Below, one piece after another: positions 50,406-56,989 of a stretch of 64,000 nucleotides of DNA. The first letter of the stretch is position 1, and every line of letters starts with the position of its first letter. A program made the translations under genes and the position numbers. The notes under the pieces were generated by a model. That model was given only the letters and a program-made list of their open reading frames with translations, searched no databases and had not been told where the DNA came from. The DNA is from Tatumella morbirosei (lineage in GTDB: Bacteria > Pseudomonadota > Gammaproteobacteria > Enterobacterales > Enterobacteriaceae), in contig NZ_JPKR02000003.1 in assembly GCF_000757425.2 (NCBI RefSeq), positions 186,001-250,000 on the forward strand, written 5' to 3'.

Positions 50406-51833
50406 TTAACGGCGTCTTTTCCGGTTACGGGTCGCCAGTAACGCAATAATGATAACGACAATCACTATCCCGCCAATGGTCAAACCGGCTGCATTTTTAA
50501 TCAGAAACGGAACATTGCTGTTGCCGCTACGGATTTTCTCTACATCGGCGCCGGTCAGCCCTGCATTTCCGTGCCCAAATTTTTCGGTGACATAGTTGGC
50601 CACTGCCGCAATCTGGTCATTATTCAACCAGGAGTGAATGGCCTGAGTGTCTGAGGAGAATGCTGGCATAACCGCTTCGCCCTGCGGAGTTTTGCGGTGT
50701 ATACCATCGACAATCGCCATCACCAGATTTGACGGGTCAGCTGCGCCAACGGCACTGTTATGGGTCAGCGACGGAAAGTAATGGTCATCTGAACCCTGAC
50801 CACTCTCCTGGTGGCAGGCAGCACAACTGCTGTCATACAGCACGGCACCGTCAGTGGTTGACGAATCGCGGTAAGCAGGGGAGTTGTTTTTACCGCCACC
50901 GGTCTGATAGCGGGTCCAGTCCACCTTGCTGTCCGGAGCGGCATCCCACGACGGTTGTTTCTGTCCCGGTGTTTGGATGGCAGGCACTGTTTTCAGCCAC
51001 GCGGCGATACTGGCTAAATCACTGTCTGACAGGTGACTGAAACTGTGTTCGATGGCATCTGCCATCGGACCACCGGCCTGAGCTTTACCTTTCACACTGC
51101 CTGTTTTCAGGTATTCGGTCAGTTCCTGCTGGCTCCAGCCACCAATACCGCTGACGGCATCAGAGGTGATATTAGGTGCCAGCCAGCCATCGACATGATT
51201 TCCGGCAAGGAACTGATGACTATCCTCAGCCATCATCTGATTACGTGGGCTGTGGCAGGTTGAACAATGAGCCAGTCCTTCTGCCAGATATTTCCCCCGG
51301 TTTTGCTCAGCGGTCAGTGCCGGATCTGATTTAAACGGAGCGTCACTGGTAAACAGCGCATTCCAGATCCCCATCAGGCCAGGCAGGTTGAACGGAAATT
51401 TCAGGTCGTTTTTGGCAGCCGGTGCTTTATCGACCGCCGGAACGGTACGGAAGTAGGCATACAACGCCTGCATATCTTCATCGGTTACAGTGGCGTAAGA
51501 TGTATAAGGCATCGCAGGATAGAGATGGGAACCATCCGGGCGAACCCCCTGACGCACCGCTTTGGCAAAATCGGCTTCAGACCAGTTTCCGATACCGTAT
51601 TTTGTCGATGAGGTAATATTCGGTGCTACGATAGTCCCCATGGGCATATTGAATTTATACCCGCCGGCATATTCGGCCCCGCCGGCGGCCGTATGGCAGG
51701 CAGTACAGTCACCGGCCCGTGCCAGATATTCACCACGACTGACCAAATCACTGTTGGTGCTTCCGGCCGCCAGGGCCAGAGGGGAAAACAGGACCGCGGC
51801 TGACAGAGTCAGAAGAGCAGAGTATTTTTTCAT
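50406..51833 (-). CDS. Dehydrogenase set B: tri-haem cytochrome c subunit
   Basis: Membrane-anchored periplasmic cytochrome c, paralogue of the subunit at 14558-15913. From the ATG at 51833, with GGAGG six bases upstream, the precursor has 475 residues. It has a signal peptide ending near LALAAG, three CxxCH sites (CTACH at 43-47, CSTCH in GLAHCSTCH near 190, CAACH in YDSSCAACHQESGQG near 340), and a C-terminal membrane helix (GLTIGGIVIVVIIIALLA) followed by a basic tail. It is longer than the set A subunit by an insert before the third haem (about 290-325). Last gene of the set B operon; its start lies against the flavoprotein stop. Confidence 0.9.
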   Translation of the reverse strand: MKKYSALLTLSAAVLFSPLALAAGSTNSDLVSRGEYLARAGDCTACHTAAGGAEYAGGYKFNMPMGTIVAPNITSSTKYGIGNWSEADFAKAVRQGVRPDGSHLYPAMPYTSYATVTDEDMQALYAYFRTVPAVDKAPAAKNDLKFPFNLPGLMGIWNALFTSDAPFKSDPALTAEQNRGKYLAEGLAHCSTCHSPRNQMMAEDSHQFLAGNHVDGWLAPNITSDAVSGIGGWSQQELTEYLKTGSVKGKAQAGGPMADAIEHSFSHLSDSDLASIAAWLKTVPAIQTPGQKQPSWDAAPDSKVDWTRYQTGGGKNNSPAYRDSSTTDGAVLYDSSCAACHQESGQGSDDHYFPSLTHNSAVGAADPSNLVMAIVDGIHRKTPQGEAVMPAFSSDTQAIHSWLNNDQIAAVANYVTEKFGHGNAGLTGADVEKIRSGNSNVPFLIKNAAGLTIGGIVIVVIIIALLATRNRKRRR

Positions 51834-51834
51834 C

Positions 51835-53427
51835 TCATACCTCCTTTGCAATGATGTCAGCTGAACGGATAGCCAGTGCCACGCCGGTCAGTGTCGGGTT
51901 GACGACACCGGCCGCAGGGATCACCCCAACAGAGGCAATAAACAGATTCGGGTGATCGTGGCTGCGACATTCATGGTTCACCACCGAGTCCTTAGGATTG
52001 TCACCCATAATCATGGTACCCATCAGGTGGTCATGGTTTTCGAAAGCAGTATTTAAATCAATGATCTGACCATTCATCAGTCCTGCAATCTGCTTGTACT
52101 GTTCAACCATGTGTTGTGCACCCAGCTTGGTGTAATCATCTACATCAAAATTCACTTTGATGCCCGGTAACCCGAGGCTGTCTTTCCATGCCGGGTTTGG
52201 CTGTACCCGGTTGGCCGGGTTTGGCAGGGGTTCCAGGAAGCTGTAGATTGACATCCAGCGCGAGGACCAGTCGAGAATACGCGCGTCCAGTTCCTTACCC
52301 ATCAATCCCTCGTTGATTGCCCGTTGAGCAATATCGATTTGCGGGTTGTTATTGGCTAAAGAGTGTTTGTTGGCGGAATATCTGGAACGAAAATCACCAT
52401 CACGCCAGGTCATAATAGTGGCCTGCTGAACCGGACCGCGTCCTGCCCACATCGGTTCATCCGCCAGGAAGTTCATACTCAGACCGATATGGTCCATCAG
52501 ATTACGGCCGACCATGTCAGAAGAATTGCCGATATCGTTCATCAGCATCAGCTTCGAGGTCTCGAAACTGTGTGCTGCCAGGACAAAATATTTAGCCGTC
52601 AGTGTATGTTCTTCACCGGCTGGAGTCAGATAACTGACGGAGGTGATTTTACCTTGTTCCCCTTTGGTAATTTTGTGTACCACGGCATCGGTGATCAGTT
52701 TTGCACCGTTACGCACGGCTTTATCTGCATGAACGGAACCGTTATACAGGGTGCCAATCGGGCAGACCTGGTCACAGTTATTATTTCCCTGACACCCCGG
52801 ACGTCCGTCATAAGGACGGTGAATACGCACGGTTGGTTCATGGACAACACTATGACCATGCGGTAACAGGGCAGCCTTCAGCTTGGCATTGCTGTAGATA
52901 TCTTCTTCCGGATCCACCGGGTAGGTTTTAGAACGTGGCGGGAAGGCTATCCCCGGGTTCTGGCCTGACTGATCTTCTGTGTCTGAACCTGCCACTCCGA
53001 TAGCATATTCGGCACGGGTATAGAAGGGCTCCAGATCGCTGTAACTGATGGGCCAGTCGCGGCCCACACCATACAACGTCTTCAGTTTAAAATCGTTAGG
53101 GATATACCGCCAGGTGGCGCCACCCCAGTGCCAGGTCGTACCACCTACCAGTTTTAGCATGCCGGGTTGCTCACGAAACTCACCATCATTTTCGATATAT
53201 CCCGGGGTATTACTGGTCGGCGACCAGGGATTATTCGGGTAGGCATTATTGCGGTCATAATGGCGGCCGGAATTACGGAAGTTTTCGAGAATTTTCCAGC
53301 GCGGCACATTGGCACCGGCTTCCAGTAAAATCACCGATTTTCCTTTTACCGCCAGTTCATTTGCCAGGTTAGAACCACAGGCCCCTGACCCTACGACAAT
53401 CACATCTGCATCAAATTCTGTAGCCAA
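51835..53427 (-). CDS. Dehydrogenase set B: GMC-family FAD catalytic subunit
   Basis: Periplasmic FAD dehydrogenase of 530 residues. FAD motif VVGSGACGSNLANEL, VGGTTWHWGGATWR, then cysteines 212, 218 and 222 in CQGNNNCDQVC with the [3Fe-4S] spacing seen in set A, and the C-terminal His (NHDHLMGT) and Asn (VVNPTLTG) of the GMC active site. The start is TTG at 53427 (AAGG nine bases upstream); no early ATG exists and the FAD motif begins at residue 9, so a non-ATG start is needed. The set A and B proteins are clearly related but diverged in substrate-side regions, which suggests different substrates, for instance gluconate versus 2-ketogluconate or a polyol. Confidence 0.87.
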   Translation of the reverse strand: MATEFDADVIVVGSGACGSNLANELAVKGKSVILLEAGANVPRWKILENFRNSGRHYDRNNAYPNNPWSPTSNTPGYIENDGEFREQPGMLKLVGGTTWHWGGATWRYIPNDFKLKTLYGVGRDWPISYSDLEPFYTRAEYAIGVAGSDTEDQSGQNPGIAFPPRSKTYPVDPEEDIYSNAKLKAALLPHGHSVVHEPTVRIHRPYDGRPGCQGNNNCDQVCPIGTLYNGSVHADKAVRNGAKLITDAVVHKITKGEQGKITSVSYLTPAGEEHTLTAKYFVLAAHSFETSKLMLMNDIGNSSDMVGRNLMDHIGLSMNFLADEPMWAGRGPVQQATIMTWRDGDFRSRYSANKHSLANNNPQIDIAQRAINEGLMGKELDARILDWSSRWMSIYSFLEPLPNPANRVQPNPAWKDSLGLPGIKVNFDVDDYTKLGAQHMVEQYKQIAGLMNGQIIDLNTAFENHDHLMGTMIMGDNPKDSVVNHECRSHDHPNLFIASVGVIPAAGVVNPTLTGVALAIRSADIIAKEV

Positions 53428-53477
53428 AGTAGTAACCCTTTATATTCATTAAAAGTTTTTGAATTTTCTGTTATCAG

Positions 53478-54026
53478 TTAAACGCCTGCCGGCAAATGGG
53501 CCCAATAGCCACTTTTCCAGCGGGAATAACTGGGAACCGGGGTGAAATCTTTGGTGAGCTGATAGGTCAATGCCTGTGCATAGGCCACAAACACCACGTT
53601 ATCTTCTGATGACAACATTACTGGCGTACCTGCATAACCCAGGTATAAGGCAGACAGAATATCTTTGGCAGTTTGTTGTGGCTTGCCCTCAAACATTTCT
53701 GAGGTTTTGAGTTCATTGACGTTGTTTATCTTATTATCTTCAATCAGCTTAGAGAGCTGTTGCAGATCAGCGGCGAAATTACTGTTAACTTTCAACAGGG
53801 CATTGGCTGCACGGCTAATCAGCTGCGGATCCTGTTGGCTTTCGGTTAAAAACTGAGCGGTTTTCTGTAATTGCGATATCAGTGACGTGCCAGCAGGAGC
53901 GGTAATGACTGCGTGTGCCGGAATCAAGGTGAATGAGGCTAATAACGCTGTTGTTTTTATCAGGAAACTACGACGTGATGCAGAAATTTCTCCTGCATCA
54001 GTTTCCTGATCTATAACAAATTTCAT
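53478..54026 (-). CDS. Dehydrogenase set B: Tat-exported small subunit
   Basis: Small subunit of 182 residues with a Tat leader (SASRRSFLIKTTALLASFTLIPAHA, twin Arg at about residues 18-19). The mature domain resembles gluconate 2-dehydrogenase subunit 3: LISRAANALLKVNSNFAADL, AKDILSALYLGYAGTPVML, YAQALTYQLTKDFTPVPSYSRWKSGYWAHLP. First gene of the operon, 50 bases ahead of the flavoprotein. It aligns only loosely with the set A small subunit outside the C-terminal third. Confidence 0.8.
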   Translation of the reverse strand: MKFVIDQETDAGEISASRRSFLIKTTALLASFTLIPAHAVITAPAGTSLISQLQKTAQFLTESQQDPQLISRAANALLKVNSNFAADLQQLSKLIEDNKINNVNELKTSEMFEGKPQQTAKDILSALYLGYAGTPVMLSSEDNVVFVAYAQALTYQLTKDFTPVPSYSRWKSGYWAHLPAGV

Positions 54027-55450: not shown

Positions 55451-55615
55451 TTTTCCCTGCCAGAGTTTATAGCCTTGTTCGGTTCAATTCCCGATGTTAC
55501 CAGGGTGGGTGTAAACAAAACCGCGCCGTAAATTAACAACAAAGCACCGCATCTGGTCAAATTCGAAATATTACATCCCGATAAGCAGAATGATACGACG
55601 GCGTCAGAATCCAGA

Positions 55616-55767
55616 TTAACCGCAATCATTGTCAGAGCCACGGTTTTTTGCCATATCGCTCGCGGAACTCAGAGCTTCAGTAATAGCAGTAATTTCCTTA
55701 ATCCGTTTACCATGGGACGATAATGAATGAGTTTTTTTCCTTCATAAATGACCTGAGCAATGGCCAT
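55616..55767 (-). pseudogene. Possible remnant of a small gene
   Basis: On the minus strand an ATG at 55767 begins MAIAQVIYEGKK and then runs into a seven-A tract. Shifting one frame there continues as HSLSSHGKRIKEITAITEAL, then SSASDMAKNRGSDND and a stop at 55616-55618. Together this would be about 50 residues with coding-like composition. It could be a decayed gene, a chance frame or an assembly slip. I do not recognise a family. Confidence 0.25.
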
Positions 55768-55893
55768 CGCTACCAGAACCGATAATCAGTGGTTCTTTGC
55801 TACCATTTCGGGCTGATGTGCTGTCGTAATCGTCGCACCTTATGTCACATAACCGACCCACAGGGATTTGGCATCATTGCACAGACATGGCAT

Positions 55894-55919
55894 TATATAA
55901 AACATATACGTTTTATATA
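55894..55919. promoter_or_regulatory. Perfect 10-6-10 palindrome before the parD-like gene
   Basis: TATATAAAAC (55894-55903) and GTTTTATATA (55910-55919) are perfect inverted repeats around ATATAC, ending 8 bases before the parD-like ATG, where the core promoter and ribosome-binding site must be. Ribbon-helix-helix antitoxins bind such palindromes to repress their own operon, so this is a likely autoregulatory operator. The AT-rich arms could also supply the -10 element. Confidence 0.6.
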
Positions 55920-55927
55920 GGCTGTTT

Positions 55928-56179
55928 ATGGGTATTGTTAAAATCAATGAGTTAATGCATAGCAATCTGCGGATCGCCAGTAACGCAATGAGTCGTTCCA
56001 TAAATGCTCAGGCAGAGCATTGGATGAAAATTGGTATGCTGGCAGAAATGTACCCTCAGTTAACCTACCCACAGCTGACCCGCGAATTAGTGCGTATCGA
56101 ATTAGAAAATGGTGAGGCTGCGATCGGTATGCTGGTCGGACAACCCTCGCCATTGTCAACGACTACAGAGAGTGCTTAA
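55928..56179 (+). CDS. ParD-like antitoxin-family protein
   Basis: Small protein of 83 residues that fits the ParD-like (PF11903-type) family of ribbon-helix-helix antitoxin relatives. It has the INELMHSNLRIASNAMSRSINAQAEHWMKIGMLAEMYPQLTY core, with N-terminal strand and two helices expected to bind DNA, followed by a short acidic tail. Its stop codon overlaps the ATG of the methionine aminopeptidase gene (TAATG), so the two are one translational unit. No ParE or other classical toxin is adjacent; the aminopeptidase stands in the toxin's place. Confidence 0.75.
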   Translation: MGIVKINELMHSNLRIASNAMSRSINAQAEHWMKIGMLAEMYPQLTYPQLTRELVRIELENGEAAIGMLVGQPSPLSTTTESA

Positions 56180-56964
56180 TGTCAGAGATAAAACTACATA
56201 CTCAGGACGAAATAGAGCTGGCCCGCGCAGCGGGCCATGCGGCCGCCAAAGTTCTTGAAATGATCACCCCGTTTGTGGTGCCGGGCGTCACAACAGAAGA
56301 GCTGGACAAACGTTGCCATGATTACATCGTCAATGTTCAGGGGCTGATTCCGGCCAATATTGGCTATCACGGTTATACCAAAACGGTCTGTACCTCCGTT
56401 AACCATGTCGTATGTCACGGGATACCGGCACCAAAAGTTCTGAAAAAGGGCGATATCGTGAATATTGATGTGGCCGTGATCAAAGAGGGCTGGTACGGCG
56501 ATACCAGTCGCATGTATTACGTCGGTGAGCCATCGATTCGTGCTAAACGGCTGGTGGAGACGACTTACGATTCGATGGTTGCCGGTATCCGGGCTGTCCG
56601 GCCAGGCGCCACGCTGGGTGATATTGGTGCAGCGATTCAGTCTGTCGCCGAAAATGCCGGTTTCTCGGTCGTAAGAGAGTATTGCGGTCACGGGGTGGGC
56701 GAGATCTATCATACCGAACCTCAGGTGTTACATTACGGCACTCCGGGTACCGGGACCGTGCTGGAAGAGGGGATGATTTTTACCATTGAACCGATGATTA
56801 ATGCCGGCAAAGCGGCGACCAGTGTGTTGTCTGATGGCTGGACGGTAGTGACTAAAGACCGTTCGTTGTCTGCTCAGTGGGAACATACGATTGCGGTGAC
56901 CTCAGAAGGTTATGATCTTTTGACACCCTGGCCGGAAGGGACCGGCGGATACGCTGAACTGTGA
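56179..56964 (+). CDS. map: Type I methionine aminopeptidase
   Basis: Metal-dependent enzyme removing the N-terminal Met of new proteins. The 261 residues carry the five metal ligands of the pita-bread fold: Asp in VNIDVAVIKEG, Asp in GWYGDTSRMYYVG, His in YCGHGVGEIYHTEP, Glu in FTIEPMINAG and Glu in AQWEHTIAVT, plus the substrate His in TKTVCTSVNHVVCHGIP. All catalytic residues look intact. E. coli map sits beside rpsB, whereas this copy is behind a ParD-like gene far from ribosomal genes, so it is probably a second, accessory MetAP. Confidence 0.9.
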   Translation: MSEIKLHTQDEIELARAAGHAAAKVLEMITPFVVPGVTTEELDKRCHDYIVNVQGLIPANIGYHGYTKTVCTSVNHVVCHGIPAPKVLKKGDIVNIDVAVIKEGWYGDTSRMYYVGEPSIRAKRLVETTYDSMVAGIRAVRPGATLGDIGAAIQSVAENAGFSVVREYCGHGVGEIYHTEPQVLHYGTPGTGTVLEEGMIFTIEPMINAGKAATSVLSDGWTVVTKDRSLSAQWEHTIAVTSEGYDLLTPWPEGTGGYAEL

Positions 56965-56971
56965 CCGACCT

Positions 56972-56989
56972 GCCCGGCGAGCGCCGGGC
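56972..56989 (+). terminator. Terminator after the parD-like/map operon
   Basis: GCCCGGCG (56972-56979) pairs with CGCCGGGC (56982-56989), followed by CACCTTATTT; it starts 8 bases after the map stop. Confidence 0.65.

Follow-up and report, generated by a model that had tools for sequence, protein, structure and literature searches.

The window, a stretch of 64,000 nucleotides from Tatumella morbirosei, carries on its + strand a compact two-gene locus flanked by candidate control signals. The first gene (55928-56179, + strand) codes for a protein of 83 residues beginning MGIVKI, which matches the ParD_like family of the Pfam database (PF11903; e-value 1.2e-24, 86.5 bits against a curated cut-off of 23) and belongs to a branch of this family linked to methionine aminopeptidase (MetAP); we propose that it is an autorepressor. 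The second (56179-56964, + strand) codes for a type I MetAP of 261 residues with intact metal ligands, which we assign to group B of the two groups defined below (TIGR00500; e-value 1.2e-91, 306.7 bits against a curated cut-off of 171.35) and regard as an accessory enzyme. The stop codon of the former and the start codon of the latter overlap as TAATG. Upstream of both lies a palindrome (55894-55919), TATATAAAAC-atatac-GTTTTATATA, whose arms are exactly complementary (10-6-10); it is enclosed by a predicted operator of three RTATAY-like boxes at 11-bp pitch (55892-55921, + strand). A promoter-like site, TTGGCA-17-CATTAT with TG before the second hexamer (55868-55896, + strand), runs into this operator, and a terminator-like hairpin (56972-56989, + strand) begins 8 bases past the MetAP stop codon; promoter-like sites occur at shuffle level (4 seen versus 4.6 expected) and terminator-like hairpins near it (4 seen versus 2.8 expected). 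A sequence-only reading of this stretch had pointed out the perfect inverted repeat at the presumed promoter and the TAATG overlap of a ParD-like gene with a complete type I MetAP gene, and both hold, the latter with the profile matches just given. It had also suggested looking for a second map gene beside rpsB, and one is indeed found at G000:C4:1580933-1581685, adjoining an rpsB-like start and coding for a MetAP 54% identical to that of the window; the three other MetAP matches in the genome are weak (25-28% identity), and no further PF11903 gene is seen in it. PADLOC gave no match to a defence system. Between the gene for a LacI-type regulator and the operator there are about 440 bases without a convincing gene (55451-55890), and at 50406-54026 the minus strand carries genes for a cytochrome c, a GMC oxidoreductase and a subunit of the FAD-SLDH type, which together resemble an operon for a membrane dehydrogenase of polyols or sugar acids.

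We searched for PF11903 in the window's phylum, in 14 well-known control genomes and in a scan of genome contigs, and found it in none of the 14 controls; the window's family has it in 78 of 295 genomes, and a sample of 398 genomes from the phylum in 109. These searches yielded 197 loci, the count of which leaves out five matches that are fragments or near the cut-off (G462:C72:17472, G489:C70:3, G522:C1:1744640, G642:C1:3721302 and G564:C3:2047). A MetAP is the next gene on the same strand in 96 of the 197 loci, spread over 95 genomes and 19 families, and is not in the remaining 101. The genome-contig scan provided a second set of named loci drawn by the ParD_like sequence alone, with a MetAP in 80/80; it comprises the best 80 of at least 588 genome-contig places, favours near relatives of the query and may share species with the first set. 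Its members come from Pantoea, Erwinia, Kosakonia, Yersinia, Pseudomonas, Variovorax, Acidovorax, Achromobacter, Methylomonas and others; close relatives are many in both sets, so that the counts of 96 and 80 do not stand for independent events. The co-occurrence of PF11903-like and MetAP genes, which the sequence-only reading had proposed to check across genomes, is thus conserved, being confined within the 197 loci to one branch of the family. Its statement that such pairs exist in enterobacterial genomes was right as to their presence there, but they are also spread beyond the enterobacteria. As no other neighbor family recurs in more than 13 of the 119 loci with long flanks (ORFs overlapping the pair being left out), the conserved unit consists of two genes. 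Plasmid records with a ParD_like match number 162, of which 95 are from Pantoea, and, among the matches listed, most plasmid MetAP matches also touch a gene annotated as 'ParD-like family protein'. DNA similarity searches recovered no such pair in E. coli, only the ordinary map gene (5374 of 5426 genomes). A phage origin was considered and rejected: phage records gave no match, and four relatives in IMG/VR may be host DNA. One exception to the usual layout is L335 (IMGVR_UViG_2579778904_000002, 43-1200), where a ParD_like gene of the MetAP type with a good operator is not followed by a MetAP, the sole MetAP found being of the ordinary type and divergent across the operator.

To the unpaired members of PF11903 a different gene is joined. 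In 79 of these 101 loci the next gene belongs to a single family of about 90 residues, and the four members of it that we scanned match the ParE-like toxin family PF15781 with e-values of 6e-29 to 2e-35; the other 22 loci have no ParE-like neighbor in the stretch examined, some of them lying at contig ends. According to a source seen in excerpt (PMC11980606), PF15781 is without known function and probably acts by mRNA cleavage. PF11903 therefore splits by neighbor into two branches, one linked to a toxin and the other to MetAP. In a tree of 96 paired and 91 clear unpaired proteins, from which ten weak unpaired rows (L145 and L194-L202) were left out, one split suffices to separate the two kinds, with an SH-aLRT of 100 from only 75 columns. 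The operons of the two branches share the family of the first gene, the gene order and the overlapping or adjacent arrangement of the genes; they differ in the second gene, a ParE-like toxin in one and a MetAP in the other, in the ParD_like protein, which next to MetAP forms the separate branch with Gly2 and the motif RS[IVM]N[AS]QA, and in the RTATAY operator at 11-bp pitch, which precedes only the MetAP-linked branch. On the evidence of gene order, the MetAP occupies the slot held by the toxin in the sister-branch operons, and the toxin-antitoxin-like layout of operator, antitoxin-like gene and enzyme gene, to which the sequence-only reading had drawn attention, accordingly has a real basis. 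The toxin-linked state may have come first, with MetAP replacing the toxin. Among the unpaired PF11903 loci (L072-L202), several weak matches bear longer C-terminal parts and may constitute a further branch.

Examination of the conservation pattern of the paired ParD_like proteins revealed an absolutely conserved glycine at residue 2 (96/96, and 80/80 in the second set), followed by isoleucine in 94 and leucine in 2 of the 96, and a core, RS[IVM]N[AS]QA, that is common to the set; at the start codon 86 of the 96 have M, 8 have V and 2 have L. In the unpaired branch the residue after the methionine is A in 59, P in 18, S in 11 and T in 3 of 101. The C-terminal part of the paired proteins varies in both length and sequence. 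An AlphaFold2 monomer model (pLDDT 80.9, pTM 0.56; L302 omitted from the folding alignment for its length) has one long helix spanning residues 8-41, and neither a fold search with the predicted monomer nor a sequence search recovered a PDB match of any weight. Among 36 members scanned against Pfam, weak matches to ribbon-helix-helix families were obtained for FitA-like (4), omega (1) and RHH_10 (1), and these are no better than the matches of the unrelated CUE domain, seen in 7 of the 36. The assignment of ParD_like to the ribbon-helix-helix fold goes back to its Pfam clan, as given in a table of PMC7354421, a source seen in excerpt; for the MetAP-linked branch the fold is a tentative assignment, drawn from this clan and the above weak matches. 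In some loci long stop-to-stop frames span the ParD_like gene, and a natural ParD-MetAP fusion was considered for these.

The palindrome in the window is best read as three RTATAY-like boxes with a spacing of 11 bp, namely TTATAT at 55893, ATATAC at 55904 and ATATAG at 55915. This corresponds to a motif that recurs upstream of the pairs, in which RTATAY boxes are separated by five bases, often GNWWC. Pairs of RTATAY boxes at exactly 11 bp number 94 in the 96 paired upstream regions versus 3 in 1920 dinucleotide shuffles, and there are none in the 100 upstream regions counted for the unpaired ParD_like branch (one of the 101 being too short). Two boxes 10-12 bp apart are found in 64 of the 96 paired regions versus 10 of the 1920 shuffles, in 3 of the 100 unpaired ParD_like regions, all three at 10 bp, and in none of 39 regions upstream of MetAP genes without a ParD_like gene, which include that of L237, a group B enzyme. 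Moreover, the sites preceding the two MetAP groups are mutually recognizable: with a threshold passed by 1% of shuffles, a model trained on group A detects 41/41 group B sites, and one trained on group B detects 50/55 group A sites and misses 5. The operator model is 30 bp in length with 28.4 bits, and scores above 8 in all 80 loci of the second set. The window operator scores 34.0 bits, the best non-overlapping score within the 64-kb window being 0.2. A search of the 4.41 Mb genome that tolerated as many as 3 mismatches finds the operator pattern at one place, with 0 mismatches there; the reversed pattern, used as a control, gave 2 chance matches. An operator upstream of the pair is thus a conserved feature, and its restriction to one place in the genome points to a regulator with a single target. 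The protein that binds it would presumably be the ParD_like protein itself.

We then examined the MetAPs, numbering residues after the E. coli enzyme from a typed reference. Phylogenetic analysis, prior to which six MetAP rows identical to paired ones were dropped, divides the paired enzymes into group A (55) and group B (41, including that of the window), and these groups recur in the tree of the ParD_like proteins (SH-aLRT 92). That the paired MetAPs arose twice, as indicated by a first tree that carried two stray M24 rows with branches of length 10, was discarded; without these rows one origin for A and B is not rejected, the grouped tree being 7.4 lnL units better (p-AU 0.62). Neither the second tree nor the residue counts include L003, L004, L178 or the duplicate L222. 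In the resulting 140 rows, which comprise 96 paired MetAPs, 6 unpaired ones of group B and 38 others, H79, D97, D108, H171, H178, E204 and E235 are invariant, bearing out the earlier remark that the metal ligands of the window enzyme are intact.

Conspicuous changes are seen at positions 59, 62, 70 and 177, which we take to line the methionine pocket in E. coli MAP. The window MetAP has N59, Y62, C70 and Y177. C59 is replaced by S in 55/55 group A enzymes and by N in 41/41 of group B; F177 is replaced by M in 55/55 of group A and by Y in 41/41 of group B; and the whole of group A (55/55) also shows Q for Y62 and N for C70. At position 70, group B has C in 37/41, the window included, and L in 4/41. 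The 38 other MetAPs have C in 20, P in 10, T in 5 and N in 3 at position 59, C at position 70 in 38/38, and F in 35 and Y in 3 at position 177. Of the MetAPs from the 80 named loci, one of which has gaps at several columns, 77 carry N at position 59, 2 carry S and 1 has a gap there; at position 70, 48 carry C, 29 carry L and 2 carry N, and one has a gap. The paired MetAPs have thus retained every metal ligand, and their methionine pocket is altered. Compared with type I MetAPs of the housekeeping kind (those encoded by map next to rpsB, such as E. coli MAP; PDB: 1mat and others), the window enzyme is alike in possessing all metal ligands and catalytic histidines and in matching TIGR00500 far above its cut-off; it is unlike them in being an extra copy, in an operon with a regulator and 54% identical to the genome's own, and in the changes shared by paired MetAPs at 59 and 177, to which group A adds 62 and 70. 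In the PDB, the chains closest in sequence to a group A enzyme are those of two ordinary MetAP entries, 4fo7 and 4juq. In L014, L024, L025 and L028 (G180, G253, G169 and G024) one stop codon falls inside the paired-MetAP match.

MetAP1 enzymes of a subtype with an active-site asparagine (MetAP1n) reportedly also release leucine. The excerpt of a review seen here (PMC11773813) describes this proteobacterial subtype as having Asn at an active-site cysteine, citing Bala et al. 2019, and links Cys70 to specificity. Group A resembles the subtype so described in its Asn at Cys70 (55/55), whereas the window enzyme, as a member of group B, keeps Cys70 and has its Asn at position 59; going by this excerpt, the window MetAP would fall outside a subtype defined by Asn at Cys70, and inside it if the asparagine meant is that at position 59.

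The paired copy is normally an extra one, as the genomes with a pair have another type I MetAP: this is so in 33/33 such genomes tested outside the window's family, and all 52 genomes with a pair within the family have 2 or 3 MetAP matches at an e-value of 1e-70 or better, among the matches listed. At least six group B MetAPs are found without a ParD_like partner, five with no such gene upstream and the sixth, L237 (G604), placed in group B by the tree, in a genome whose only PF11903 match among those listed lies on another contig. The operator is kept at none of the five of these unpaired genes that were tested for it. Three of the six belong to one genus and occur alongside another MetAP above the cut-off. 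Two others come from reduced genomes, G095 (1.2 Mb) and G058 (0.8 Mb), in which no other type I MetAP passes the cut-off; their proteins are identical to those of the map genes on the plasmids pBMSBPS3 of Candidatus Pantoea carbekii and pAst of Candidatus Ishikawaella capsulata, both of them stinkbug symbionts (L203/L347 and L204/L346). These symbiont copies have diverged, with 73% and 62% identity to the window MetAP, and the gene on the Ca. Pantoea carbekii plasmid sits among genes annotated as stress proteins. Since it is the sole type I MetAP above the cut-off in two symbionts, an enzyme of this type can probably fulfil the essential function, without necessarily being toxic by itself; the two reduced genomes thereby lend indirect support to the removal of N-terminal methionine by the paired type.

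Taking together the conserved linkage, the operator, the retained catalytic residues, the pocket changes and the existence of the enzyme without ParD_like, all of them read from sequence, we consider it probable that the locus is an autorepressed operon for an accessory MetAP, with a repressor drawn from an antitoxin family, and not an addiction pair, because MetAPs of the paired type persist without ParD_like. In this two-gene operon of a dedicated autorepressor and an accessory MetAP, dimers of the ParD_like protein would sit on the RTATAY boxes (55892-55921), which overlap the presumed promoter, and hold down expression of the two genes; on some signal the repression would cease, giving the cell a second MetAP with a methionine pocket unlike that of the housekeeping enzyme. 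We infer that the protein binds DNA and represses rather than activates, that the window MetAP is active and that there is an inducing signal; the regulator could instead be an activator. The earlier suggestion that extra MetAP activity might be restrained by the ParD-like partner would accordingly stand at the level of transcription, where the conserved operator speaks for it, and not beyond. MetJ, Arc and omega are ribbon-helix-helix autorepressors with repeated operators, and the present protein is like them in being short, with a conserved N-terminus and repeated operator boxes; it is unlike them in that the fold of its branch is attributed through the Pfam clan (the excerpted table of PMC7354421) and weak matches.

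Options for the signal include MetAP acting as a co-repressor, proteolysis of the repressor, and the sensing of N-terminal processing through the Met-Gly end of the repressor. Glycine at residue 2 makes an ideal MetAP substrate, and in ribbon-helix-helix proteins the strand that contacts DNA lies near the N-terminus. The invariance of Gly2 in the paired proteins of both sets raises the idea that the first residue of the repressor serves it as a gauge of MetAP activity: once Met1 has been removed it would bind, and when MetAP is blocked Met1 would stay, binding would weaken and the backup MetAP would be made. We view this as quite improbable; as the unpaired branch also has mostly small residues after the methionine, a cleavable N-terminus is not special to the paired proteins, only the strict glycine is. 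If true, the excision of N-terminal methionine would be governed by a feedback circuit derived from an antitoxin.

Control might instead be exerted at the protein level, with ParD_like binding MetAP as an antitoxin binds its toxin, and holding it inactive or using it as a co-repressor, such that free MetAP sets both expression and activity. The protein does belong to an antitoxin family whose sister branch adjoins a toxin family, the stop and start codons overlap in a TAATG, TGATG or ATGA fashion in 46 of the 96 pairs, and groups A and B match in the ParD_like and MetAP trees. However, the paired ParD_like proteins agree neither in the length nor in the sequence of their C-terminal part, and group B MetAPs occur without a partner, and we hold such control to be unlikely. 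A variant of the preferred reading, an autorepressed operon, would make the second MetAP a stand-in that withstands oxidants or thiol-reactive compounds, metal shortage or MetAP inhibitors by virtue of its replaced active-site cysteines, and that is switched on under those circumstances. The universal loss of C59 from both groups would fit this, as would the replacement of C70 by N throughout group A and by L in 4/41 of group B and 29/80 of the named loci, and the company of stress-protein annotations around the Ca. Pantoea carbekii gene; yet C70 is kept in the window and in 37/41 of group B, and position 59 is not C in 18/38 of the other MetAPs, which makes the link to cysteines weak and the stand-in role, to our minds, a doubtful one.

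A classical type II toxin-antitoxin system, in which MetAP is the toxin, harmful in excess and neutralized by ParD_like, appears very improbable. The locus has the bicistronic layout of such systems, with the gene from an antitoxin family first, overlapping genes and a conserved site as predicted operator at the presumed promoter, but the MetAP matches no toxin family, PADLOC reports none, and the second gene is kept without the first, group B MetAPs lacking ParD_like in six cases and being the sole type I MetAP above the cut-off in two. Chance adjacency of unrelated genes, to which the presence of the pair at the same place in only 2 of 6 genomes of the genus (the window's and G675; the other 4 have the downstream gene without it) might lend color, is rejected as extremely improbable, given a pairing conserved in 96/96 of the branch and 80/80 of the second set, across at least 19 families and with no other conserved neighbor.

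Our search of the open-licence literature recovered no description of the ParD_like-MetAP pair, which is not proof of its absence; among sources seen in excerpt, PMC3948609 has MetAP and toxin-antitoxin genes on one fosmid, not as a pair, and PMC7354421 and PMC13129497 merely list the family name. The class of MetAPs with an altered pocket has already been published (Bala et al. 2019, by way of the excerpted review PMC11773813). The present analysis brings to light an antitoxin-family protein whose partner, in the position of the sister branch's toxin, is an enzyme of an essential type; the arrangement comes with a conserved operator and extends over at least 19 families within a single phylum. 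The label 'antitoxin', given automatically to the MetAP-linked branch, may mislead. For the altered-pocket MetAPs, in turn, a dedicated regulator now seems likely, and this suggests that certain conditions call for the second MetAP; such conditional use would be relevant to the question why two MetAPs are maintained in many bacteria, and to MetAP as a target for drugs.
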